Under the pieces are notes generated by a model. That model saw only the letters and a list, made by a program, of their open reading frames with translations. It was not told the origin of the DNA and made no database searches. Positions 30,430-63,288 of a stretch of DNA of 64,000 nt are shown here, one piece after another (position 1 is the first letter of the stretch; every line of letters starts with the position of its first letter). The stretch is from Gemmatimonadota bacterium (GTDB lineage: Bacteria > JAAXHH01), in NCBI GenBank assembly GCA_009835325.1, contig VXWP01000070.1, positions 1-64,000 of the forward strand. The letters are read 5' to 3'. The position numbers and the translations under genes were made by a program.

Positions 30430-32214
30430 TCAAGGTCCCCCGCGTACGTGTCGCCGAATAACTTCGGCTATGGCCGTGTTGCCGGATTCATCCGCAATCG
30501 AAAGCGGCAGGGTCCAGGGCCAGTCGGCCAGACCAGGTTCGGCGCCGTGTTTCAGTAACAGGCGAACCATGCCGGCCTGGTCGTGCTCGACCGCGACGGC
30601 CAGGGGCGTGCGGCCTTCTTTTTCATCCAGCACGTTCACCGCCGCGCCTATTTCGATCAGGGACCGGGCGGTGGATGCCCAGCCATGCCGGGCGCAGACG
30701 TGTAGGTAGGTCTGACCCTCGAAGGTGCGGCGGTTCGGATCCAGGCCCGCCGCGACCAGTTTGCGGGTGATCGCGGCGTTGTCGCCCCATCCCGGCAGGT
30801 ATTGAAGATCAACCAGGCGTCCGGGCGCTCCGGGATCCTCGGCCAGCAGTGTATCGATCAGCCGCTCGTCTTCCGAACCGATCACTTCGGCGGCCACGTA
30901 AGGATCCCGGACCCGGTGCGACTTGCCGTCCACCAGGTTCCGGAGCGATTCGCGGTCCAGGCTCCAGGACGGTGGGTACACCGCGCCGTGACGTACGAGC
31001 AGATCCCTTATGGATTGATCGTTCGTGCCCGCGGCGCATCCGCAGGAGTCCAGTTCCACGTTGGGATTGGCGCCGCTTTCCAGCAGCAGGGCGACCAGAT
31101 CCGCCTGCTTGTGCCACACGGCCACGAAGAGCGCTTCGTCCACCGCGTGTCCGTCGGTGCCCGCTTCAAGCAGCAGCCGAACGATGCGTTCGTGTCCTGC
31201 GCGCACCGCATAGGACAGGGGGGACCTCATGGCGGCATCGCGGTGCTTTTCGGCGGGTTGCGCTTCGAGGATCGACGCTGCCCTTTCGAAGTCGCCCAGG
31301 TGGCAGGCCGCCGTGATGGCGTAATGCGCACCGTTCTCCAGCAGGTACACCGTGAGGCCGAGTTTCGGATCGGGCGGATCGAGTCCGAATCCGACATCGA
31401 AGGACAGGGTCAGCGGGGTCTTGCCGTCCGCGCGCCGGGAATCGATGGGTACGCCGCGGTCCAGAAACAGCTCGATCAGGTCTTTCCGGCCGTTCAGTAC
31501 GCCCAGGTGAAGTCCGCTGTTGCCGTCTTCGTCCGTTCGCCGGGCCAATTCGGGCTGTTCGTGCAATACCGATGCAACACGCTCGAATGCAACGCGCTCG
31601 AAGCCGCCTGCCTTTATGAGATCGGCGATCTCCCTGAACGCGGGATCGTAGCCGAACCGGGCGTTCATCGCGTTTTCGAGAACGTCCACCACGTCGTCGA
31701 AGCCGCGTTCCCGGGTGCTTTCGAGGAGACTCGCCCAGGTCGAATTGAATATATTGAGTCCAGGATCGGCGCCCCGGTCGAGCAGCAGTTGCACAGCGTC
31801 GGCATGTCCGTGGCGCGCGGCCAAATGGACCGGCTGGGCGTACCAGTGCAGGGCATTCACGAGTCGCGGATCGTCATCGAGTAGCGCCTCTATGGCCACC
31901 CGATCGCCGGCAGCGCCGGCCTTGAACAGGGACCAGGCGGCTTCTCCGTCGATCCAGTCAGTCTCGTCGCCCCAACGGTCGTCGTAGTAGGGCCGCCCGT
32001 ATTCGGGACCCAGGCCCGGGCTGATCATGAACCCGGTCCGGCAGGCATCCAGGTGCACGCGCCCCCGGAACTTTCCGGGAAACGCCATGCGCGCGGCGCG
32101 GTCGGGGTACTTTCCTTTGATTTCCACCGTGTTGCTCCGAACCGATTTCTGATCGACGTCAGTCGGCCGATCGACACCGGACCGTTCGTTGATCGTCTCG
32201 TTCCGCCCGATCAT
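30430..32214 (-). CDS. Ankyrin-repeat protein
   Basis: 594 residues from ATG 32214; the stop of the upstream ankyrin gene is six bases before, so translational coupling is likely, and no ribosome site is seen. The first ~75 residues are unique (basic, with GRPYYDDRWGDETDWIDG). Repeats from about 80 onward: QPVHLAARHGHADAVQLLLDRGADPGL, NSGLHLGVLNGRKDLIELFLDRGV, SPLSYAVRAGHERIVRLLLEAGTD, LLLESGANPNVELD, TYLHVCARHGWASTARSLIEIGAAVNV, RTPLAVAVEHDQAGMVRLLLKHGAEPG. True start could be a later Met (for example the one beginning MAFPGKF). Confidence 0.85.
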   Translation of the reverse strand: MIGRNETINERSGVDRPTDVDQKSVRSNTVEIKGKYPDRAARMAFPGKFRGRVHLDACRTGFMISPGLGPEYGRPYYDDRWGDETDWIDGEAAWSLFKAGAAGDRVAIEALLDDDPRLVNALHWYAQPVHLAARHGHADAVQLLLDRGADPGLNIFNSTWASLLESTRERGFDDVVDVLENAMNARFGYDPAFREIADLIKAGGFERVAFERVASVLHEQPELARRTDEDGNSGLHLGVLNGRKDLIELFLDRGVPIDSRRADGKTPLTLSFDVGFGLDPPDPKLGLTVYLLENGAHYAITAACHLGDFERAASILEAQPAEKHRDAAMRSPLSYAVRAGHERIVRLLLEAGTDGHAVDEALFVAVWHKQADLVALLLESGANPNVELDSCGCAAGTNDQSIRDLLVRHGAVYPPSWSLDRESLRNLVDGKSHRVRDPYVAAEVIGSEDERLIDTLLAEDPGAPGRLVDLQYLPGWGDNAAITRKLVAAGLDPNRRTFEGQTYLHVCARHGWASTARSLIEIGAAVNVLDEKEGRTPLAVAVEHDQAGMVRLLLKHGAEPGLADWPWTLPLSIADESGNTAIAEVIRRHVRGGP

Positions 32215-32219
32215 AATTT

Positions 32220-33101
32220 TCAACCGGTGTGAGCACCAAGTTCAACCAGCGCGTGGAACGCCGTCCGGCTCCTTGCGGAAGCGGCACAGTCCAGCGGCGT
32301 TCTGCCTCCGTGGTCCCGCGCGTCCGGGTCGGCGCCGGCTTCGATCAAGGCGCGGACCGTATCGGTTCCCGTTCCTCTCGCGCAGACCAGGTGCAGCCCG
32401 GTACGGCCTTCACCATCCTGGAGGTTGGGATCGGCCCCGAGTTCCAGGAGCAGGCGGACCCGCTTGCCATGGCCGTGATTGGCGTCGTGGTGCAGGAGGG
32501 CGCGTCCGTCCACCCGCTCGTTGATGTCCCATCCGTGCCCGACCAGCAACTGGAGTCCCTCGGCCATCGACGCGCTCGGCGTATGCTTGAGTCCACCCCG
32601 GTTCGGTTCCGCGCCGTTTTCCAGCAGGAATCGCACGCCATCCAGGGTGCCGAATCGCAGTTGCATCATAAGCGGGGTTTCCCCGGCGCACCCCACGGTA
32701 GTCAGGGCGTTCACGTCGGCCCCAGCATCCAGCAGCAACCTGCCGACGGGGACGGACCGCCAGTGATGCATCGCCCGGGCGATCCCCCGGCCTCCGGTGA
32801 ATTCGGCATGTACGAGTTCAGGATCGTCCGTCAGCCCGGACCGGACTGCTTCGATCCGGTCCGCCATCACGGCATCCCTGAAGGCGCGCACCCGGTCGGG
32901 AATCAGCAGGTCCGCGATCGCCCGGTGGACCGGCTTATAGCAGTGGCCGCAATTCCGGCGGACGAACTCCCGCAGCAGAGGGTGGACCGCGATCCCGTCG
33001 TAGCCTGCGAGCCGTGGCCGGCTTTCGACAGCGGTCTGCGCGGCTTTCAGATCCCCTCGTGCAAACGTCGCAAGGAAGGCTTCGTCAGATTCGGACTCCA
33101 T
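32220..33101 (-). CDS. Ankyrin-repeat protein
   Basis: 293 residues, ATG with GGAGGG 10 nt upstream. The N-terminal 80 residues contain an unusual Cys/His patch, RNCGHCYKPVHRAIADLL, which could bind a metal but has only two Cys. Units: LLLDAGADVNALTTVGCAGETPLMMQL, FLLENGAEPNRGG, GRALLHHDANHGHGKRVRLLLELGADPNLQDGEGRTGLHLVCARG, ALIEAGADPDARDHGGRTPLDCAA. First gene of a three-gene minus-strand ankyrin run ending at 29011 (the spacer at 30235-30429 may break it). Confidence 0.87.
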   Translation of the reverse strand: MESESDEAFLATFARGDLKAAQTAVESRPRLAGYDGIAVHPLLREFVRRNCGHCYKPVHRAIADLLIPDRVRAFRDAVMADRIEAVRSGLTDDPELVHAEFTGGRGIARAMHHWRSVPVGRLLLDAGADVNALTTVGCAGETPLMMQLRFGTLDGVRFLLENGAEPNRGGLKHTPSASMAEGLQLLVGHGWDINERVDGRALLHHDANHGHGKRVRLLLELGADPNLQDGEGRTGLHLVCARGTGTDTVRALIEAGADPDARDHGGRTPLDCAASARSRTAFHALVELGAHTG

Positions 33102-43733: not shown

Positions 43734-43885
43734 CGAGCGCTCCCATAATATCGACAAAATATGGTTAGTGCCGCCGGGCTGCACTGTCAATACAAACCTC
43801 GATATGCCCCGGCAGTGAGGAGAGTCGGCTGATTTTTTTTATTTGTAACGCCGACCGTTCTAACTGACACTAATACAATAGCGCA

Positions 43886-44404
43886 GTGATCACTATGGCA
43901 GAACCTCTGGCCAGGATAACGCCGGAATACTGTATCGACATCGTACGGGAGTACCCCTTCCCGGTCGACCGTGTCTGGGCGGCTGTTACGACGGCGGAGG
44001 GGATCACGGCCTGGATGAAGTACGAAGCCACGTTGGACCGCCGCCTGGGTGGCAGGATCTTCGTGGACTTCAAGTCGGAAGGTAACCTGGAAGGCACGGT
44101 CTGCGAATGGGTTCCGGAACGGGTGTTTGCCTACACCTGGGGGCTTTCCGTGGTACGATGGGTGCTCGAGCCCTGCGAGGGCGGCACGCGGCTGCACTTC
44201 ACGAATTCCCACGTCACCCCGGAAATCCTGATGGGATTTGCCGCCGGCTGGCACGCCTTCATCGACCACCTGGGACCGTACCTGGCCGGGACCACCGTGG
44301 AAGACCGGTATGACGATCTCATGGAGGCCTATGCGGATCGATATGGCCACCTGATCGCGGACAACGACGCGGACAACGACGTCACCAAGGAGAACCAGAC
44401 ATGA
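43886..44404 (+). CDS. SRPBCC (AHSA1-like) domain protein
   Basis: 172 residues from GTG 43886 (ATG at 43895 is the alternative). TACAAT ends six bases before the GTG and there is no ribosome site, fitting a leaderless start. The fold is shown by YCIDIVREYPFPVDRVWAAVTTAEGITAWM, GGRIFVDFKSEGNLEGTVCEWVPERVFAYTW, CEGGTRLHFTNSHV and AAGWHAFIDHLGPYL: a hydrophobic ligand-binding cavity protein. Its stop overlaps the ATG of the ankyrin gene that follows, so the pair is coupled. Confidence 0.88.
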   Translation: MITMAEPLARITPEYCIDIVREYPFPVDRVWAAVTTAEGITAWMKYEATLDRRLGGRIFVDFKSEGNLEGTVCEWVPERVFAYTWGLSVVRWVLEPCEGGTRLHFTNSHVTPEILMGFAAGWHAFIDHLGPYLAGTTVEDRYDDLMEAYADRYGHLIADNDADNDVTKENQT

Positions 44405-46110
44405 CGAACGATTCGACCTCCGGCGCCTTCACCGTAGCCGAGCTTTGTGAGGCGTCGGCCGATGGGGACTTGAAGCGCATCCATTCCATTCTGGCCGTTG
44501 CACCCCACCTGGTGGGTGTGGACACGGCGTCCTACGACGAACACCGCGCCCTGCACCACGCGGTGATGAACCGCCGGATCGACGCGGTTTCCGCGCTCAT
44601 GGCCGCGGGGGCAGACCCGAACCAGGGCGTCTATCCCCACCGGGATGCCTCCACGCCCCTGGTCATGGCCCGCGACCGCGGTTTTGAAGACGTCGTTGAA
44701 ACGATCAACGAGGAAATGGAGCGGCGGCGGGAAGCGAACCTTTGCCCGAATCTGACCGTTGCGCCAGAAGTGGTGCGCCTCGCGAAAAAAGTCGCCGATG
44801 GCGACGTATCCGGCGCGATGCGGGAAATCCACGCCGCGCCCGAACTCGCGGAAGCCTGCGACGAAGACGGGAATACGGTCCTGCACCATGCGGCCAGCCA
44901 CGGCCATCCCGGACTCGTTCAGGCGCTGCTATCGCTCAAGGCCGACACGGGCAAGACCAATCTCGAAGGCTTGACGCCGCTCGAGCTGGCCGTAGATCAA
45001 ACTTCCGCAACGGACCGGCGGCGGTCGGAAGGATGTTTCATGGCCGCCGGCATCCTCATGAGCGCGGGCGCCCCCAGGAGCCTGCGCACGAACGTGATGC
45101 TGGGGGACGAGGAAGCCGTGCGACAGGTCGCGGCGAGCCACCCCGGTCTGTTCGAACCGGATGTTGATACCGAAACCCACTTGCTCGGGGACGCCGTCCG
45201 CCACAATCGGTACGAGATGGTGAAGCTGCTGCTGGATCTCGGCATGGATCCCAACCAGCGTTACCGCATCCAGTCACTGGAGGAAGAGACCTACAACTGG
45301 GGCGAACCGCTGTGGATCGCGGCCGGCGACGGCCAGCACGACATCGCGCAGTTGCTGCTCGAACGGGGCGCCGACGCCAACGCCGCCGTGTATGCCTCTG
45401 GCAATCCCATGAGCCGCGCCTACAATAACCGGGACGACCGGATGAAACGGCTGCTATACCGGTACGGTGGAACGATGACTCCGGACGGCGCGGCCCTGGA
45501 ATGTGATACCTCAGCGGCCGTCATGGCACTGAACCTGCAGCCCGACCTGGTCGAGCAGATCTTGTGGGGCGCCGCCTGCGGAGGCGATCCCAGCGTGGTC
45601 GGCGTGTGCCTGCGCAAACTGGACTGGGCGCTGGACGATCATCGGTGGTACAGACTCCTCATCCAGCCCATCGGCATCTGGCCCTGCGGTCCACATCGCA
45701 AGTACCGGGATTTCGATCGTTCCGTATTTCCGGAGATCCTGCGCATGTTCCTCGATCACGGGGTGGACCCGAACGTGAAGGGCCGGCGCGACACATCACT
45801 TCCGCACTATATCGCAGCTACCGGGAAAGTCTGGGGTCAGCCGAATCTGAAAGAGGACGAACGGATCGAGTTCGCGCGCCTGCTCCTCGAATACGGCGCC
45901 TCGCTCGACGGCAGGGATACGCTGCTTCATTCCACGCCCCTGGCCTGGGCGGCCCGCTGGGGCCGCAATTCGCTGGTCGACCTCTATCTCGAGCACGGCG
46001 CCGATCCGCAACCCGAAGGGGAATCCTGGACCACGCCGCTCGCCTGGGCCGAACGGTACGGGCATGCCACCATAACGGACCGGCTGCGGGAAGCCGGCGC
46101 CGTTTCCTGA
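44401..46110 (+). CDS. Large ankyrin-repeat protein coupled to an SRPBCC gene
   Basis: 569 residues, ATGA overlap with the SRPBCC gene and AAGGAG upstream. About fifteen units fill the chain: ALHHAVMNRRIDAVSALMAAGADPNQG, NTVLHHAASHGHPGLVQALLSLKADTGK, MVKLLLDLGMDPNQRY, IAQLLLERGADANAAV, MFLDHGVDPNVKGRRD, TPLAWAARWGRNSLVDLYLEHGADPQPEGESWTTPLAWAERYGHATI. Near 225-265 and 360-410 the repeats are degenerate. The same TPLxWAxRWG-type unit occurs near the C-terminus of the sigma-ankyrin protein at 60038. The 3' end is part of a direct repeat. Confidence 0.9.
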   Translation: MTNDSTSGAFTVAELCEASADGDLKRIHSILAVAPHLVGVDTASYDEHRALHHAVMNRRIDAVSALMAAGADPNQGVYPHRDASTPLVMARDRGFEDVVETINEEMERRREANLCPNLTVAPEVVRLAKKVADGDVSGAMREIHAAPELAEACDEDGNTVLHHAASHGHPGLVQALLSLKADTGKTNLEGLTPLELAVDQTSATDRRRSEGCFMAAGILMSAGAPRSLRTNVMLGDEEAVRQVAASHPGLFEPDVDTETHLLGDAVRHNRYEMVKLLLDLGMDPNQRYRIQSLEEETYNWGEPLWIAAGDGQHDIAQLLLERGADANAAVYASGNPMSRAYNNRDDRMKRLLYRYGGTMTPDGAALECDTSAAVMALNLQPDLVEQILWGAACGGDPSVVGVCLRKLDWALDDHRWYRLLIQPIGIWPCGPHRKYRDFDRSVFPEILRMFLDHGVDPNVKGRRDTSLPHYIAATGKVWGQPNLKEDERIEFARLLLEYGASLDGRDTLLHSTPLAWAARWGRNSLVDLYLEHGADPQPEGESWTTPLAWAERYGHATITDRLREAGAVS

Positions 46111-48180: not shown

Positions 48181-49221
48181 ATGAATTCTGGTTCAGAAGA
48201 CAGCGCGTCATCGGAGCAGTCAGTCTCGCGTAGCGAAGCGGCGATGCAGGAACTGCGATCAGCCATCTGGGAAGTCGATCCACCTGCCGTCGAGGAAGTC
48301 CTGGACCGGGAGCCTGGCATAGTCAATGAACCGGTGAACCACCCGCGCTGGGGAGGCCGTCCCGTGCCGATACAACTGGCGGCGGAACGCGGGAACACGA
48401 AGGTCATGGAGATACTGTTGCGCAACGGTGCGGACCCGGACCACGGCACCGATGCCTACGGAGGCTGGACCGCCCTCCATCTCGCTGCCCATTGGGGTCA
48501 CAAGGACGCGGCCGAATTGTTGCGGTCTCACGGCGCGAACGTGGATCTGCACGCCGCGTGCCTGCTGGATGATGTCACCGCCGTCCGGGCAATACTGGCG
48601 GAAAATCCCGGCGCGGCATCCCGTCCGGCACTGGGAGGAGAGCCGCCCCTCCATGTGGCGGTGTCCGAGGAAACGGCCGGGATCCTGCTTGACCACGGAG
48701 CGCGGCTGGATACGACCGACGGCGACAGCAACACGCCGCTGGGTGCGGCGCTGTCCCGCGGAGACCGTTGTCGCCGGCTGGCGGAGTTCCTGATCGCCCG
48801 GGGCGCGCCGGCGGATCCCTGCCAGCTCGCTGCCCTCGGAAGGACAGACCAACTCGGCCGGCTTTTCGAGACCGATGCGGGCATGATTGCATTCGAAGGG
48901 AAGATCGGGGTGCACGCCGTGGTGGGGACGCCCCTGCACGCTGCGGTGCAACACGGATGGGAGGAAACAGTCAGAGCACTGCTGGAACTGAGCGCAGATG
49001 TGAACGCCCGGGCGGACTCCGGGCAGACGCCCCTGCATCTGTGCGGAAATCCCGGGATCGCGAAGATACTCGTCGATGCCGGCGCCGATCCGGGTGCGAT
49101 AGACGATGAACACGGCACGACGCCGCTGGTATGGGCGGAAGTGGGGATTGAAATCCACGGCTCGACGCCGGAGCGCGAGGCCCTGGTCTCGTACTTGCAG
49201 GGAATCACGCCCGCACGGTAG
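48181..49221 (+). CDS. Ankyrin-repeat protein
   Basis: 346 residues from ATG 48181, which has GGAG 7 nt upstream; an in-frame ATG at 48139 has none. Ser-rich first 20 residues, then units VPIQLAAERGNTKVMEILLRNGADPDHG, GWTALHLAAHWGHKDAAELLRSHGANVDLHAACLLDD, EPPLHVAVSEETAGILLDHGARLDT, NTPLGAALSRGD, GTPLHAAVQHGWEETVRALLELSADVNARADSGQTPLHLC, ILVDAGADPGAIDDEHGTTPLVWAEVG. Its last 17 bases overlap the 3' end of the convergent globin-ankyrin gene. Confidence 0.88.
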   Translation: MNSGSEDSASSEQSVSRSEAAMQELRSAIWEVDPPAVEEVLDREPGIVNEPVNHPRWGGRPVPIQLAAERGNTKVMEILLRNGADPDHGTDAYGGWTALHLAAHWGHKDAAELLRSHGANVDLHAACLLDDVTAVRAILAENPGAASRPALGGEPPLHVAVSEETAGILLDHGARLDTTDGDSNTPLGAALSRGDRCRRLAEFLIARGAPADPCQLAALGRTDQLGRLFETDAGMIAFEGKIGVHAVVGTPLHAAVQHGWEETVRALLELSADVNARADSGQTPLHLCGNPGIAKILVDAGADPGAIDDEHGTTPLVWAEVGIEIHGSTPEREALVSYLQGITPAR

Positions 49222-50773
49222 GACTGGCGGCTTCGAACATCGAGACGATGCGTTCCTTTTCGGGACGCTTCATCCGGCGGGCGATCCCCAGGGGGGACTT
49301 GCCCAGTCTGTCTTCAAGGGTCGGGTCCGCTCCTCGGGCCAGCAGCAGTGCCGCCGATTTTACGATGTCCGCCCGGGGACCAGCCTTCAGGGCGTAAAAC
49401 AGGGGGGTCTCGCCCGTCTCGCTCCGCGCGTCGACTGGAGCGCCGTTGTCCAGCAGCACCTCCATAACCCCCGTGAATCCGGCCTTGGCGGCAAAGTGCA
49501 GGGCGCTGGCGCCGCGCAGTACCGTGTCGATCCGGGCCCCCTTGTCCAGCAGGGCCTGCACGTACCGGGGATCGTCCCGCTGGCTGTTGTTCCCCGTACA
49601 TGCCGTCCAGATCCAGTCTCCTTCCGGGTAGTTGACGTCGGCGCCGCGGGCGATAAGCAGGGCCGACTCTTCTTCGTCGAGTACCCATCTGCCGCAGCCG
49701 ATCCGGGTGGCATCCGCGCCCTGCTCCAGCACCAGCCGAAGCAGACCGGGCCGCCCCCGGCCAGCTGCATAACTGACCAGGGCCGTGCTGTTTACGCCGA
49801 CGTTGGCGCCCCGGTCGAACAGCATCCTCGCGACCTCTTCGTGTCCGCCGTACACCGCGTGATGTAGCGGCGTAACGGGCAGCAGGTCGCAGGCGGGGTC
49901 GTGGGCGTCGACCAGGCCGGGCGCGGCATCCAGCAGTTCGGCTACTCGGTGCCGGTCACCCAGAAAGCAGGCGCTGAAGACATCGTAGACGGCACCCCGC
50001 TCCAGCAGGAACGCGGCCGTCTCGTCCTTCTTCTTGCTCCGCGCGGCACAGTGGGCGGTCAACATGACGTCGCTCGAATGGGCCGACGGAAGGTTCACGT
50101 CCACCCCCCGGTCGAGCAGCAGGGCCGCTACCTGCGTATGGCCCCTCAATGCCGCCTCCGCGAGGATGATCGCGCCGTGACGGGGATCGTCCAGCACCGC
50201 AGGATCCTCGTCCAGGCATCGCGCAAGGGCTTCCGCCTGCCCCCGGGCCGCCAACCGGGCAGGTTCTCTCCACAGCTTCTCGCGGTGACATCTCATCTCC
50301 CACCCGTGCCGGGCGGGTTTCCGCTCGTTGACGAGGCCGTGGGCAAGGGGCCGGAGCACGTGCAGCACTTCGGCAACGAGCGATTCTTCACCGATGTGAT
50401 CCCGCAGCGAAGCGTTCATGTGCGACAGCCACCGGTCGGCGGATGCCCGGGTGATGTGTATGTGACCGTGCCGGTTTTTTATTCCGCCGTAGGCGTGGTG
50501 CCGCGTGTAGTCCGGTTCGCCGCCCATCCACTCCTCCATGAACGCCTTCTGCTTCATGCGTTCGGGAGCCAGCGTACGGGTGAACATGGGACGCAGTTCG
50601 GCGTCCTTTTCGATCCGGTCGTACAGGCCGTCGATGACGTCCGCGACCACGGATCGGCCGCCGATCCGTTCGAACAGGGTCTGATCCGGCCGCAACACGG
50701 TGGCGAGCCCGCCCCGGTGGGCCAGCAGGGCTTGAATCCGGGACGAATCGCTGGTTGTTGGTGATGCCGGCAT
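49205..50773 (-). CDS. Truncated haemoglobin (group II-like) fused to ankyrin repeats
   Basis: 522 residues, ATG 50773 with GAGG 8 nt upstream. Residues 30-150 are a truncated globin: TLFERIGGRSVVADVIDGLYDRIEKDAELRPMF (Tyr51 at B10), KQKAFMEEWMGGEPDYTRHH, IKNRHGHIHI (His102, proximal haem ligand) and SADRWLSHMNASL (Trp115 at G8). From 165 to 510 are ankyrin units: AEAALRGHTQVAALLLDRGVDVNLP, TPLHHAVYGGHEEVARMLFDRGANVG, ALHFAAKAGFTGVMEVLLDNGAPVDARSETGETPLFYAL, LLLARGADPTLEDRLGKSPLGIA. The frame is continuous across the junction. Could sense oxygen, NO or haem redox state and pass it on through protein binding. Confidence 0.88.
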   Translation of the reverse strand: MPASPTTSDSSRIQALLAHRGGLATVLRPDQTLFERIGGRSVVADVIDGLYDRIEKDAELRPMFTRTLAPERMKQKAFMEEWMGGEPDYTRHHAYGGIKNRHGHIHITRASADRWLSHMNASLRDHIGEESLVAEVLHVLRPLAHGLVNERKPARHGWEMRCHREKLWREPARLAARGQAEALARCLDEDPAVLDDPRHGAIILAEAALRGHTQVAALLLDRGVDVNLPSAHSSDVMLTAHCAARSKKKDETAAFLLERGAVYDVFSACFLGDRHRVAELLDAAPGLVDAHDPACDLLPVTPLHHAVYGGHEEVARMLFDRGANVGVNSTALVSYAAGRGRPGLLRLVLEQGADATRIGCGRWVLDEEESALLIARGADVNYPEGDWIWTACTGNNSQRDDPRYVQALLDKGARIDTVLRGASALHFAAKAGFTGVMEVLLDNGAPVDARSETGETPLFYALKAGPRADIVKSAALLLARGADPTLEDRLGKSPLGIARRMKRPEKERIVSMFEAASPTVRA

Positions 50774-51056
50774 TGCACCATCCTCGGGCCATGGAATCCG
50801 GCCGTACGTGACTGGAGATTCTCGCAACGTCGGAATGTGGGACCTGGAGATTCCTTAGCGATTGGGATTCTGGATCTGGTGCAAAGTAGCCGCCGGCAAG
50901 CTTTCCGATCAAGGGGTTTCATCGCCTTGCGACCCGCAATTGTGCGTTGACGACGGCACAGGCGCATGTTATATAGAAACGGGCGCATCCACGGACCGGT
51001 CGCGGTTTTGCGGAATGCGCTTTATCCTTTTGGATGCCTTTTCCGGGGATACCCAG

Positions 51057-57512: not shown

Positions 57513-58106
57513 GTGCAACGGTATAGATCGGTCGAAGATTACCTGGATGGCCACGTGGAATGGCGCTCCCTGCTTGAAAGACTGCGCGCCATCATGAACG
57601 CTTGCAAGGTCGAAGAGACCGTCAAGTGGGGTCAGCCCTGCTATACCCATGACGGCAAGAACGTGGTGGGTATCGGGGCGTTCAAGGAGTTCGTGAGCGT
57701 CTGGTTCTTCCAGGGCGCGTTGCTGCGCGACGAACACGGCGTCCTGGTCAATGCGCAGGAAGGCCGGACCAGGGCCATGCGGCAATGGCGGTTTCAGGCG
57801 GTCGAAGAGATCGACGAACCGATGCTGCGCGCTTACGTGGCCGAGTCCATCGAAAACCAGCGGCAGGGCAAAGCGATCAAGGCGGAAAGGAAAAAGCCGG
57901 TGGAGGTTCCGGATGAACTGGCCGGCGCACTGGCGGAAGACCGCGACGCCGGCGATCGGTTCAATACGCTTTCGCCGGGGAAGCAGCGTGAGTACACCGA
58001 ATACATTGCCGAGGCCAAACGGGCGGAGACCAGGGCCAGGCGCCTCGTTAAAATCCTGCCCATGATCCGGGCCGGCCACGGGCTCAATGACAAGTACAAG
58101 AAGTAG
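57513..58106 (+). CDS. YdeI/DUF1801-like protein
   Basis: 197 residues from GTG 57513, preceded by AAGGATGGA. SVEDYLDGHVEWRSLLERLRAIMNACKVEETVKWGQPCYTHDGKNVVGIGAFKEFVSVWFFQGALL is the DUF1801 domain (1-110); the C-terminal half (VPDELAGALAEDRDAGDRFNTLSPGKQREYTEYIAEAKRAETRARRL) is the OmdA-type helical domain usually linked to it. Function unknown; often linked to stress responses. 25 nt after the polymerase gene. Confidence 0.87.
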   Translation: MQRYRSVEDYLDGHVEWRSLLERLRAIMNACKVEETVKWGQPCYTHDGKNVVGIGAFKEFVSVWFFQGALLRDEHGVLVNAQEGRTRAMRQWRFQAVEEIDEPMLRAYVAESIENQRQGKAIKAERKKPVEVPDELAGALAEDRDAGDRFNTLSPGKQREYTEYIAEAKRAETRARRLVKILPMIRAGHGLNDKYKK

Positions 58107-58184: not shown

Positions 58185-58538
58185 ATGGCGAACCCCGTCA
58201 TGCATTTCGAGATCGGATGCAAGAACAGAGAAGAAACCCAGGCCTTCTACGCCGGCCTGTTCGGGTGGAACATGGAGTCCCATGAACATGCCTCCATGAT
58301 CGACACCGGGGAAGATGTAGGGATCAACGGTCATATTTCCGCCCTCGGTCACGAGCCGCACAACTACACGCTGGTCTATGTGCAGGTCGACGATCTGGAC
58401 GCATACGTCGCGAAGGCCGAGGCACTGGGTGGAGCCTCCATCGTACCTCCAACCGAAGTACCGGGCATGGGCCACTTCGCGTGGATAGCGGACAACGAGG
58501 GAACGTTCGTCGGACTGTGGAAGCCCCTGGAATCGTAA
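58185..58538 (+). CDS. VOC (glyoxalase-fold) family protein
   Basis: 117 residues, ATG after GAGGAGCG. PVMHFEIGCKNREETQAFYAGLFGWNME, HNYTLVYVQVDDLDAYVAKAEALGG and VPGMGHFAWIADNEGTFVGLWKP show the two-module fold. Resembles the CFP32/27-kDa antigen type of glyoxalase-like proteins. Substrate unknown. It is followed two bases later by the glycosylase reading frame. Confidence 0.87.
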   Translation: MANPVMHFEIGCKNREETQAFYAGLFGWNMESHEHASMIDTGEDVGINGHISALGHEPHNYTLVYVQVDDLDAYVAKAEALGGASIVPPTEVPGMGHFAWIADNEGTFVGLWKPLES

Positions 58539-59540: not shown

Positions 59541-59912
59541 TCAGTCGGGATCCTGGGCGATGTGCCAGAGCACGCCCGCCGGATCGATCAGGTGGATCTC
59601 GCGAAGCCCCCAGGGATAAACGGTGGGCTTCCTGGCGCGGGCTCCCTCGTATCGCGCCACGAGGTCTTTCTCCACGATCAGCTCCCACCAGGCGTCCAGG
59701 TCCGACACTTTCAACTGCATCATGAAATTGTCCGCCCAGTCCTTCTGATAGTAGTTCTGGAGCAGGAAGCTGAATCCCTCGATGCGCATCTCCTTCACTT
59801 CGTCCGCGGCCCAGGCCACTTCGAATCCGAGGTCCTCGTAGAACCGGGTAGAATCATCGTAGTCTTTTGACGGGACGAAGACCCGGAGCGCGCTTACTTT
59901 CAGGTTATGCAC
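59541..59912 (-). CDS. VOC (glyoxalase-fold) family protein
   Basis: 123 residues from GTG 59912 with GGAGGG 7 nt upstream. VSALRVFVPSKDYDDSTRFYEDLGFEVAW, FSFLLQNYYQKDWADNFMMQLKVSDLDAWWELI and YPWGLREIHLIDPAGVLWHIAQD are standard; the conserved metal ligands are partly lost, as in bleomycin-resistance-type binding proteins. Convergent with the glycosylase (19 bp) and divergent from the sigma-ankyrin gene. Confidence 0.85.
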   Translation of the reverse strand: MHNLKVSALRVFVPSKDYDDSTRFYEDLGFEVAWAADEVKEMRIEGFSFLLQNYYQKDWADNFMMQLKVSDLDAWWELIVEKDLVARYEGARARKPTVYPWGLREIHLIDPAGVLWHIAQDPD

Positions 59913-60037
59913 GGCAGGTCCCTCCACTTGCGCGAATATCCAGACGAAATTGTAACACCTGGCCCCTTTGATGACACTATGGTAATGGGGAATGGACGGA
60001 AGGCGCAAGGCGCCGGTTACCGTTACGACGGTTCGAT

Positions 60038-62284
60038 ATGACCAACGACCTCAAACAACACATTCGGGTTTCAGCCGATCGGTCTTTATCTCATGCGGAA
60101 CGCAGTACCGCTTTCGGCAAGGTGGTGGCCGGTTTCCAGGACATGGCCTTCGGCTACGCACTGGGCCTTCTGGGCGAACGGCACCTGGCGGAAGATGCCG
60201 CGCAGGAAGGATTCATCGCTGCATGGCAGCACATCGAGTCGCTTCGCGAGCCGGATTCATTCCCAGCCTGGCTGAGGCGGATCATAAAGTGGCAGTGTTT
60301 CCGGTTCAAGAGACGTAACAATCACCGTTTCGTACCCATGGAAGGTGACATCGAGGCGACGGATGAAAGTCCCCTGGACCGGGCAGCACGCAGGGACATG
60401 AGCGAAAAAGTCCGCAGCGCGGTGGAAACATTGCCGGAAACACTAAGGGAAGTAACTGTACTGCGGTATATTGGAGACTATTCGGCATCTGAAATCGCAA
60501 ATTTCATGGGATTGAAAGCGGGAACGGTACGCAAAAGGCTGTTCGAAGCACGGAACAAGCTGAAGCCGAGTCTGCTTCGCACTTTATCAAGCGAACTGAA
60601 CGGTCACGCGCCGTCTGCAAACGATATCTTCGGAGACCGAGTCATGCATTGGATACGACCCGATTTCACGAGCGAGCAAGGCCATTTCATGGATGGCAAC
60701 CCGAACAAGGTCTGGGACATGCTGCTGGCCGCGGCGGAAGGGGATCTTGCCGGTATCAGGTCGTTGCTGCGGGAAGACCCCGGCCTGGCCAATTGCAACT
60801 GGGCGTATTACCAGCCCCTGCACTTCGCCGTCCGGGAAGGTCACACGGAGGCGGTCCGCCTGTTGCTCGAACACGGTGCGGATCCTTCGTCGGCATCGGG
60901 ACTCGATTATCACGTGCCGCCGCTCGAACGGGCCAGGGACCGTGGGTACGACGAGATCGCCGGACTCCTGACGGACGCCATCGCTTCCAGGTACAACGCG
61001 CCGCCCGTGGGCGAACGTGCCTGCGAAGTGGTCCGTCAAGGCGATCTGGAGGAAGCCCGTGCGTTGTTCGAGGCTTCTCCCGAGTTGATCAACGCCTCGG
61101 ACGAACGCGGCAACCGTCCCCTCCACGAGGCCGTGGAAGAACACAACCTGGAAATGACGGCTTTGCTGCTGGACATGGGGGCCGAACCGGATCCGGTCAG
61201 GTGGGATGGAAGCAAACCGCTGCATGTGGCCGTGTTTCGCGCGCGCAAGTCAAGGGGAGGCCTGAATCCGTTGCTGACCGGATATCTGATCGCAAGAGGA
61301 GCGAACTACAGCATGACGGTCGCATGCGCCCTGGGGGACGAACGGCGCGTTGGAGCACTCCTGGCACAAGACCGAAACCTGGCCAACGACCAGGATACCT
61401 GTGGACACTCCCCGCTGTTCAGCGCGGCGTCACAGGGATACACCGACATCGTGCAGCTTCTGCTGGACCACGGCGCCGATCCCAACGCACCGGAACACAA
61501 CGCGCCCAGGGGACACGCGCTGTACGAAGCCGTGGCCGGCAATCACCTGGAAACGGCGAAACTGCTGCTCGCTCACGGCGCCGATCCCAACGCCCCGGTG
61601 GAATCCAGCGGTGTGCCCCTTTCACAGGCCCTCGGCCAGGGAAAAAACGAGGAGATGGTAAACCTTCTCTATCAGCACGGGGCTACGGCCGACATCAGCA
61701 TGTACGTGCTGCTGGACAATATCCCCGTGGTCGGCGAACTCCTCGGCGCGGACCCCGGTCTGGCCAATTACGGCGGCGATTACGGGGTGCTTTGCATGGC
61801 GGCCGGCTTCGCGCGCAGGGAGATCATCGAAATGCTACTCCGGGCGGGAGCGGAACTGAACCGGCCCTGGTACGCCAACAACTACATGGGGTATGCGTTC
61901 CGCCGGCGCAAGGGCTGGCACCTGGACGGGCGCGCCCTGACTCCCAACGACGATATCCTCGACATGCTGAACCTTTTCTTCGATCACGGGGCCGATCCCA
62001 ACAACGCCAACTGGCACGGCGTCACCTACCTGCACAAACTGGCGGTGATCGGCGACGTGGAGAAATCCGCCCTGCTGCTGGACCGGGGCGCATCCATCGA
62101 GGCCGTGGACGACGAGTGGCGCTCCACCCCGCTGGGATGGGCCGCGCGCTGGGGAAACCGGGAACTTGCAGCGTTCCTGCTGGAGCGGGGTGCGGATCCC
62201 CGGGGCGGCGGCGCGGAATGGGCGACACCCCTTGCCCGGGCGGAGAAGGCCGGGCACCAGGATATCGTCGAGATGTTGAAATAG
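60038..62284 (+). CDS. ECF sigma factor fused to ankyrin-repeat domain
   Basis: 748 residues. Residues 30-95 are sigma region 2 (VVAGFQDMAFGYALGLLGERHLAEDAAQEGFIAAWQHI, FPAWLRRIIKWQCFRFKRR) and 122-178 region 4 (VETLPETLREVTVLRYIGDYSASEIANFMGLKAGTVRKRLFEARNKLK), the normal length of an ECF sigma. A ~45-residue linker leads to about fourteen ankyrin units (225-745): QPLHFAVREGHTEAVRLLLEHGADPSSA, NRPLHEAVEEHNLEMTALLLDMGAEPD, LLLDHGADPNAPEHNAP, LLLAHGADPNAPVES, LFFDHGADPNNANWHG, LLLDRGASIEAVDDEW. One frame throughout. The repeat half may act as an in-cis inhibitor or signal receiver; no anti-sigma gene is adjacent. Confidence 0.92.
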   Translation: MTNDLKQHIRVSADRSLSHAERSTAFGKVVAGFQDMAFGYALGLLGERHLAEDAAQEGFIAAWQHIESLREPDSFPAWLRRIIKWQCFRFKRRNNHRFVPMEGDIEATDESPLDRAARRDMSEKVRSAVETLPETLREVTVLRYIGDYSASEIANFMGLKAGTVRKRLFEARNKLKPSLLRTLSSELNGHAPSANDIFGDRVMHWIRPDFTSEQGHFMDGNPNKVWDMLLAAAEGDLAGIRSLLREDPGLANCNWAYYQPLHFAVREGHTEAVRLLLEHGADPSSASGLDYHVPPLERARDRGYDEIAGLLTDAIASRYNAPPVGERACEVVRQGDLEEARALFEASPELINASDERGNRPLHEAVEEHNLEMTALLLDMGAEPDPVRWDGSKPLHVAVFRARKSRGGLNPLLTGYLIARGANYSMTVACALGDERRVGALLAQDRNLANDQDTCGHSPLFSAASQGYTDIVQLLLDHGADPNAPEHNAPRGHALYEAVAGNHLETAKLLLAHGADPNAPVESSGVPLSQALGQGKNEEMVNLLYQHGATADISMYVLLDNIPVVGELLGADPGLANYGGDYGVLCMAAGFARREIIEMLLRAGAELNRPWYANNYMGYAFRRRKGWHLDGRALTPNDDILDMLNLFFDHGADPNNANWHGVTYLHKLAVIGDVEKSALLLDRGASIEAVDDEWRSTPLGWAARWGNRELAAFLLERGADPRGGGAEWATPLARAEKAGHQDIVEMLK

Positions 62285-62313: not shown

Positions 62314-63288
62314 ATGCCGCAGACCGAATGCCTGGCCGGAGATCACGCACTGGGCGAGGCGATTGTGCGCAATGACCCGGCCGCCGTCGAAACGGCGATG
62401 ACCACCAGGCCCGAACTGGTGGAAGCGCCCTGCAGGTGGATCGATCGTCGAGGCAGGGAGCGGCCGGTCAAGCCCCTGGTGCTGGCCGACATGCTGGCGC
62501 GGGTTGACCTGACGAAGCGACTGCTGCGGGCCGGCGCCGACGTCCATGACCTGGATGCCTCGCTCTTCGGCTGTTGCGAGGGACACGACCTGAAACACCT
62601 GCGGCGGCTGCTGGACCTCGGCGTCAACCCGAACGACGCGTGTAACGAAGGGTGGGACTGCGACGTGCTGTACGGCTTCCTGCAGACCTACACCCGGTCG
62701 GCACCCGATCATCTCCACGCCTGTATCAACCTGCTGATCGACCATGGCGCCGCCTTTGACGACGGTCCGGTCATGGACATACACCGGGGAGACCTGGATG
62801 CCTTGGCGGCTCGCCTCGCATCGGACAAACGACTCGTTTCGGAGCGTTTTTCGCTCGATTACGGCAATCATCTTACCCTACGGGGTAGTACGCTGCTCCA
62901 CGTGGCCGTGGAGTTTCATGAACTGGAGGCGATTGCCCTGTTGCTTGATCATGGGGCCGATCTAGATGCCCGGACGTCTATCGGGCGAAACGGCGTGGGA
63001 GGCCAGACGCCCCTGTACCACGCCATCGGCACGAACCAGGGGACGGGTTATCACGTATTCGAACACCTGCTGGAACTGAAGCCCGACCTGGCTGTGGAGG
63101 CGATGATCCAGTCGAATCCGGACGACAACGGCCTGGTCATGGACTGCATCCACAAAGGTAAAGAACACGATTTCGACGAGGTCTTGAAGCTGACGCCGCG
63201 AGGATACGCGGAGCGGTTTGCTGTAGGTCCGGTCTGGAGAGAAGCAAGCAGGGAACTGGCGGTTCTGACGGAACTCGGCGCGCCCTGA
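62314..63288 (+). CDS. Ankyrin-repeat protein downstream of the sigma-ankyrin gene
   Basis: 324 residues, 29 bp after the sigma-ankyrin stop and likely co-transcribed. N-terminal units are degenerate (LGEAIVRNDPAAVETAMTTRPELV, DLTKRLLRAGADVHDLDASLFGCCEGHDLKHLRRLLDLGVNPND); clear ones are LLIDHGAAFDDGP, STLLHVAVEFHELEAIALLLDHGADLDARTSIGRNGVGGQTPLYHAI. The last 60 residues have no visible repeat. May be the partner or target of the sigma-ankyrin protein. Confidence 0.86.
   Translation: MPQTECLAGDHALGEAIVRNDPAAVETAMTTRPELVEAPCRWIDRRGRERPVKPLVLADMLARVDLTKRLLRAGADVHDLDASLFGCCEGHDLKHLRRLLDLGVNPNDACNEGWDCDVLYGFLQTYTRSAPDHLHACINLLIDHGAAFDDGPVMDIHRGDLDALAARLASDKRLVSERFSLDYGNHLTLRGSTLLHVAVEFHELEAIALLLDHGADLDARTSIGRNGVGGQTPLYHAIGTNQGTGYHVFEHLLELKPDLAVEAMIQSNPDDNGLVMDCIHKGKEHDFDEVLKLTPRGYAERFAVGPVWREASRELAVLTELGAP

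Follow-up and report, generated by a model that had tools for sequence, protein, structure and literature searches.

A conserved ECF sigma factor fused to an ankyrin domain and its predicted two-promoter regulon

In the stretch of DNA analysed here (the window, 64,000 nucleotides of contig C70, from a 3.68 Mb genome in 119 contigs, 95% complete), one gene at positions 60038-62284 (+) begins as a sigma factor of the ECF type and continues, in the same frame, as an ankyrin protein. Such a gene raises two questions: whether the two halves really belong to a single protein and, if they do, which promoters the sigma half reads and what the ankyrin half contributes to its control.

Architecture, conservation and surroundings of the fusion gene

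The gene encodes 748 amino acids, starts with ATG and runs in a single frame without internal stop. Sigma-70 region 2 (60134-60322, +, residues 33-95; Sigma70_r2, PF04542, E 1.1e-14) and region 4 (60404-60562, +, residues 123-175; Sigma70_r4_2, PF08281, E 1.5e-11) are followed by the ankyrin domain (60701-62281, +, residues 222-748), matched by Ank_2 in 6 stretches (1.4e-49). Between region 4 and the ankyrin part lies a linker of 35-40 residues (60584-60700, +, residues 183-221), delimited from alignments and containing an invariant P192-S193. The Pfam matches for Sigma70_r2, Sigma70_r4_2 and Ank_2 all exceed the curated cut-offs, and the solved structures closest to the sigma half are ECF sigma factors, SigW being the best (1.7e-14). 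The succession of ECF regions 2 and 4 and an ankyrin domain in one frame, as proposed by the first-pass annotation, is thus confirmed by the open reading frame, by Pfam and by structure matches. The estimate of fourteen or so repeats made there was close to the AlphaFold2 model, which features about 16 helix pairs in residues 222-748, with pLDDT mostly 75-95. The model was built from 14 sequences, with the ankyrin part modelled well and the sigma half poorly, and a Foldseek search started from it returned generic ankyrin matches only, with no good global superposition; for both reasons, no contact between the domains is claimed.

A frameshift or an assembly join between residues 180 and 225 might create a frame of this kind out of two genes. 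This reading is refuted by the orthologues, which are full length, with a continuous frame, in 10 of the 11 other congeneric genomes (78-95% identity, identical neighbours); in the eleventh, the orthologue is split over two contigs. A second fused paralogue, F2, 38% identical and also continuous in frame, lies on contig C53 of the source genome and has counterparts in five more congeneric genomes, while it was not found in G001, G005, G006, G007, G009 and G011. The same fusion recurs in paralogues and in genomes that were assembled separately, and nothing was found in favour of an artefact, the chance of which is practically nil. More distant fused relatives (L027, L028, L036, L072) are found within the same family and order.

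The ratio of mean dN to mean dS is 0.16 in region 2 (residues 21-97), 0.08 in region 4 (residues 121-182), 0.31 in the linker and 0.12 in the ankyrin domain, values which indicate that both halves of the fusion are under purifying selection, strongest in region 4. The close relatives in GTDB are metagenome-assembled genomes labelled Latescibacterota or 'Gemmatimonadetes' bacteria; judged from isolate names, the genus probably consists of sponge-living Latescibacterota. Sponge Latescibacterota carry ankyrin and other repeat proteins (PMC12993501).

Gene order around the fusion is conserved: polB, DUF1801, VOC, HhH-GPD glycosylase, VOC (reverse), the fusion, an optional ankyrin gene and a BNR-like gene. 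The divergent glyoxalase/VOC-family gene (59544-59921, -; PF00903, E 9e-9) keeps its position in each of the 7 relatives with contigs extending that far, and in all of these the second VOC gene (58185-58538) and the DUF1801 gene (57513-58106) also adjoin the fusion. On the other side, 30 nt past the fusion stop, an ankyrin gene (62314-63288, +; Pfam Ank) is probably co-transcribed with the fusion. The first-pass annotation had described the next gene as another ankyrin protein; this is correct here and does not extend to the whole genus, where the gene is facultative, being found in 4 of the 7 relatives compared and not in the other 3. No anti-sigma gene was recognised among the immediate neighbours of the fusion; an adjacent cognate anti-sigma gene is a common, not a universal, companion of ECF sigma factors.

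A footprint shared by two transcription units

A predicted ECF-type promoter, TGTAAC-ACC-N13-GACACTA (59951-59979, +), lies about 60 nt 5' of the ATG of the fusion, with GTAAC at 59952-59956 and GACACTA at 59973-59979. Alignment of upstream regions yields the genus consensus GTAAC-N16/17-GRYACTR, or, in a fuller form, TGTAAC(A/G)CC-N13/14-G(A/G)(C/T)ACT(A/G). The footprint is conserved in the 11 congeneric upstream regions examined, the twelfth genome contributing a match at a contig end.

A second copy, TGTAAC-GCC-N13-GACACTA (43844-43872, +), is found about 22 nt 5' of an AHSA1/SRPBCC-family gene (43895-44404, +; PF08327, E 6.3e-16), whose stop is overlapped, via ATGA, by a sigma-less ankyrin gene (44401-46110, +); both genes are predicted targets. 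This AHSA1-ankyrin operon lies about 16 kb from the fusion gene. Its ankyrin gene is present in 12 of 12 genomes, and the product, which has its ankyrin family in common with the fusion, is 34% identical to residues 223-747 of the latter. Each of the 12 genomes also has the footprint ahead of the orthologous AHSA1 gene, and its GTAAC never varies.

The strict pattern matches the whole 3.68 Mb genome exactly twice, at 59951 and 43844, and a reversed control pattern gives zero matches in any of the 12 genomes. A relaxed pattern, searched across the genus, retrieves the two sites, one singleton and a recurrent sequence resembling the end of 23S rRNA. The latter, 'GGTAACGAGCC...GGTACTA', present in many genomes, was set aside, being identical everywhere and followed by AATAGCC; we take it to be the 3' end of 23S rRNA. 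The four relatives searched beyond the genus, none of which yielded a fusion orthologue, have few matches, scattered and at unrelated genes. The footprint was not seen before the F2 paralogue, and it is also retained in the genomes that yielded no such paralogue. Since the paired footprints are, throughout the genus, limited to two units per genome, these comparisons make a good case for one dedicated promoter type common to the fusion gene and the AHSA1-ankyrin operon.

Most simply, the fusion protein itself would read both footprints, since ECF sigma factors are frequently autoregulated and commonly recognise -35 boxes containing AAC (PMC8103513). The two sites might, on the other hand, be housekeeping promoters of the sigma-70 type, or belong to another regulator, the fusion having other targets: TTGTAA-N17-GACACT agrees with the sigma-70 consensus in about 7-8 of 12 positions and has the ideal spacing. 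Moreover, the putative -10 element is GRYACTR (ACTA) and not the textbook CGT, which is common, albeit not universal, in ECF target promoters, and another genus-wide ECF or the housekeeping sigma factor could read such a motif. Several observations make this alternative unlikely. The initial T of TGTAAC is G in three genomes (G002, G006 and G008: GGTAAC), so that the TTG is broken while GTAAC is invariant at every site; the paired motif recurs across the genus at only two non-rRNA positions; and in G005, where the old AHSA1 footprint looks degraded, an intact copy is found 31 nt nearer the gene.

The fusion had also been proposed to control the other ankyrin genes of the window, twelve by the initial count. 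Among the ORFs scanned there are 11, most of them confirmed by Pfam; those at 30430-32223 and 44401-46110 were recognised by homology. As to their control, the proposal is supported, by conserved footprint, for one operon (43895-46110) and not for the rest: the strict pattern matches nowhere else in the genome, and the other ankyrin genes are therefore not predicted targets. Control of all ankyrin genes of the window, where only two strict sites exist, was accordingly discarded. A search tolerating 3 mismatches found 5 sites versus 2.24 expected, with 11 of 100 shuffles equally high, hence with no clear excess, and the footprint was not seen upstream of the ankyrin gene at 30430-32223.

Ankyrin genes are otherwise abundant in this part of the window: at least 9 sigma-less ones are clustered, on both strands, between 23477 and 50827, most of them without footprint. 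One gene (49208-50827, -) combines, in a 540-aa frame, a bacterial globin domain (residues 50-165) with ankyrin repeats.

Relatives lacking the sigma half and a proposed mechanism

In a tree of ankyrin domains the sigma-less genes do not form one group. Gene 44401 clusters with a fusion from a related genus (99/95), and gene 30430 falls in one clade with the fused F2 paralogues (100/100). In G013, a fragmented assembly, two sigma-less genes are preceded, just 5' and in another frame, by recognisable region-4 sequence, and a third begins within the last helix of region 4. Sigma-less genes thus being nested among fused ones and accompanied by sigma remnants, repeated loss of the sigma half appears to explain the tree best, and suggests that some sigma-less ankyrin relatives descend from transcription regulators.

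At one locus of the same assembly (L105, G013:C67) two sigma-less ankyrin genes are adjacent, each closely preceded, in a different frame, by broken but recognisable sigma sequence.

Stand-alone ankyrin proteins of the same family were also detected in one Paenibacillus family, in 12 of the 105 genomes. Four of them were examined and share 47-48% identity with the whole ankyrin domain of the fusion; a few of the stand-alone proteins start with a linker-like piece ('LIQP..LRT'). They may either descend from a fusion or have donated the domain. Plasmid and viral collections contributed only sigma-less ankyrin matches of low identity.

Sigma domains that look lost or broken next to an open ankyrin frame in several relatives (G013), together with the nesting of sigma-less among fused genes, might be taken to mean that the protein works through its ankyrin domain and keeps its sigma half as a relic. 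For the fusion itself this is very improbable: the sigma half is intact in the genus, and purifying selection is strong there, and strongest on region 4. The maintenance of sigma-less relatives does imply that the ankyrin domain has some function independent of a sigma factor.

The reading that we favour, and consider moderately probable, is that the fusion is an autoregulated ECF sigma factor with a built-in regulator, acting on its own gene and on the AHSA1-ankyrin operon. The N-terminal 180 residues would bind RNA polymerase and recognise promoters of the form GTAAC-N16/17-GRYACTR, and the C-terminal ankyrin domain would replace the missing anti-sigma factor. Whenever a partner, either a protein or a ligand in a conserved groove, is bound or released, the ability of the sigma half to work would change, the signal passing through the short linker which adjoins region 4. 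The active fusion would then turn on its own gene, positive autoregulation being common among ECF sigma factors, along with the AHSA1-ankyrin operon, whose sigma-less ankyrin product, as a competitor for the same partner, may feed back.

That the ankyrin domain gates the sigma half on partner binding is the most likely option by analogy with ECF42 and with other extensions replacing anti-sigma factors; C-terminal extensions of ECFs generally stand in for anti-sigmas, and the long ones studied control their sigma (PMC8999054). In ECF42, the stretch of the TPR extension adjoining region 4 affects activity (PMC9023288). The same analogy makes plausible the view, already expressed in the first-pass annotation, of the ankyrin half as a protein-binding scaffold which sets sigma activity. 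A further indication comes from residues G579-G583, W611-Y612-N614-N615 and N658-W659, which depart from the ankyrin consensus and are kept in comparison with the stand-alone Paenibacillus proteins: their conservation over such a distance suggests a binding groove, dedicated to one specific partner or ligand.

Ankyrin domains, however, are scaffolds for binding in general, with no known sensing site, and autoregulation alone could yield a bistable switch. The ankyrin half might then be a tether or scaffold, localising the sigma factor or binding a chaperone, and not a switch, with the sigma half controlled by synthesis only. We regard this as doubtful, considering that the ECFs with long C-terminal extensions studied so far are controlled through them (PMC8999054) and that the unusual ankyrin residues just mentioned speak for a specific partner or ligand.

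Within the favoured reading of a sigma factor with built-in regulator, a more elaborate scheme may be tentatively drawn, in which the two units form a closed circuit. One ankyrin family would provide both the built-in sensor and a free product of the sole target operon which, by titrating the partner or ligand, determines at what level the switch is thrown. The ankyrin gene of that operon would be a former fusion, deprived of its sigma half and captured by the promoter of its paralogue. This scheme is itself improbable as it stands. Ankyrin proteins of sponge symbionts are usually treated as eukaryote-like and important for symbiosis; here, one of them sits inside the bacterium's own transcription control.

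Other ECF fusions and comparison with known systems

Fusions of ECF and ankyrin domains, with repeats of other kinds, also occur in G014, a member of the same order, in G346 and in 7 of 68 genomes of the class to which G158 belongs. Like the window gene, they carry ankyrin repeats after ECF regions 2 and 4; unlike it, their repeats are shorter and more canonical, and, except in G014, the linker differs. Fusions of the G158 class adjoin ahcY, whereas that of the window adjoins VOC/AHSA1 genes.

In 6 of these 7 genomes of the G158 class (L107, L109-L113) the ECF-ankyrin gene, which is of a different family, lies just 5' of ahcY, on the same strand, ahcY being confirmed by Pfam in the three scanned. 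A link of this family to the methyl cycle, via ahcY (S-adenosylhomocysteine hydrolase), is possible.

A linker motif similar to that of the fusion, 'PS....F', comes after region 4 in ECFs that end in other domains, such as a Paenibacillus-family ECF with C-terminal glyoxalase/VOC domains. Since a similar region 4 and linker precede different C-terminal modules, this part of the protein seems to be a recurrent docking place for such modules. Other ECFs with long C-terminal modules, either glyoxalase/VOC or DUF1835, were observed in the Paenibacillus family (L103, 705-2666; L060-L062). The source genome itself contains another ECF sigma factor (L005, 160-2064; G000:C12), whose frame of 634 aa includes a long C-terminal extension without known fold.

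The first-pass annotation could not name an ankyrin-extended ECF group. Likewise, we found no description of ankyrin-extended ECFs in an incomplete coverage of the literature; the architecture is nonetheless not unique, given the ECF-ankyrin fusions of distant bacteria. By its regions the fusion is an ECF (group IV) sigma factor: regions 2 and 4 are present, regions 1.1 and 3 absent, the only sigma matches in Pfam being Sigma70_r2 and r4. By the same domain comparisons, it falls outside every named group tested, ECF42, ECF41/56 and ECF57 differing in the extension domain, MzaA in score and coverage.

The model of MzaA, annotated as the sigma factor of MZA anti-phage defence, aligns with ankyrin repeats close to its N-terminus. 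Membership of the fusion was rejected, as it scores 71 bits against a cut-off of 800 (NCBIfam), and over the ankyrin part only; the sigma half has no MzaA match in PADLOC, and no set of Mza partners was found among the neighbours scanned. Matches to Legionella AnkH/AnkY and to PADLOC PDC-M72A/Ankyrin were similarly discarded as generic ankyrin similarity, far under the curated cut-offs where these exist. The Paenibacillaceae stand-alone proteins share the ankyrin family of the fusion, but not its sigma half.

ECF41 and ECF56 are likewise controlled in cis by their C-terminus; their extension has a SnoaL-like fold of the small-molecule type, whereas the fusion carries repeats and has no SnoaL match. 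ECF42 is closer, in that an ECF core is again followed by a helical-repeat extension, with no anti-sigma factor, and regulation is thought to occur by protein interaction via the part of the extension adjoining region 4 (PMC8999054; PMC9023288). The ECF42 extension is, however, a TPR domain of about 200 residues, while that of the fusion is an ankyrin domain of 520, with no TPR or DUF6596 match, and no YCII/DGPF gene, the neighbour type of ECF42, was found by Pfam among the fusion neighbours scanned. In ECF57 and in the ECFs of Gemmataceae, too, the sigma factor is joined to an eukaryote-like protein-binding repeat domain, made of WD40 repeats (PMC8999054; PMC11032199); these are propellers, found in other bacteria, while the fusion has no WD40 match and features ankyrin repeats instead.

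C-terminally extended ECFs are a growing class, in which most extensions have no known mechanism. The lineage described here has kept an ankyrin extension throughout a genus, and its predicted regulon of two promoters is small enough for complete testing in vitro. By analogy, it resembles those ECF sigma factors that bear a C-terminal regulatory extension made of repeats, such as the TPR domain of ECF42 and the WD40 domain of ECF57.
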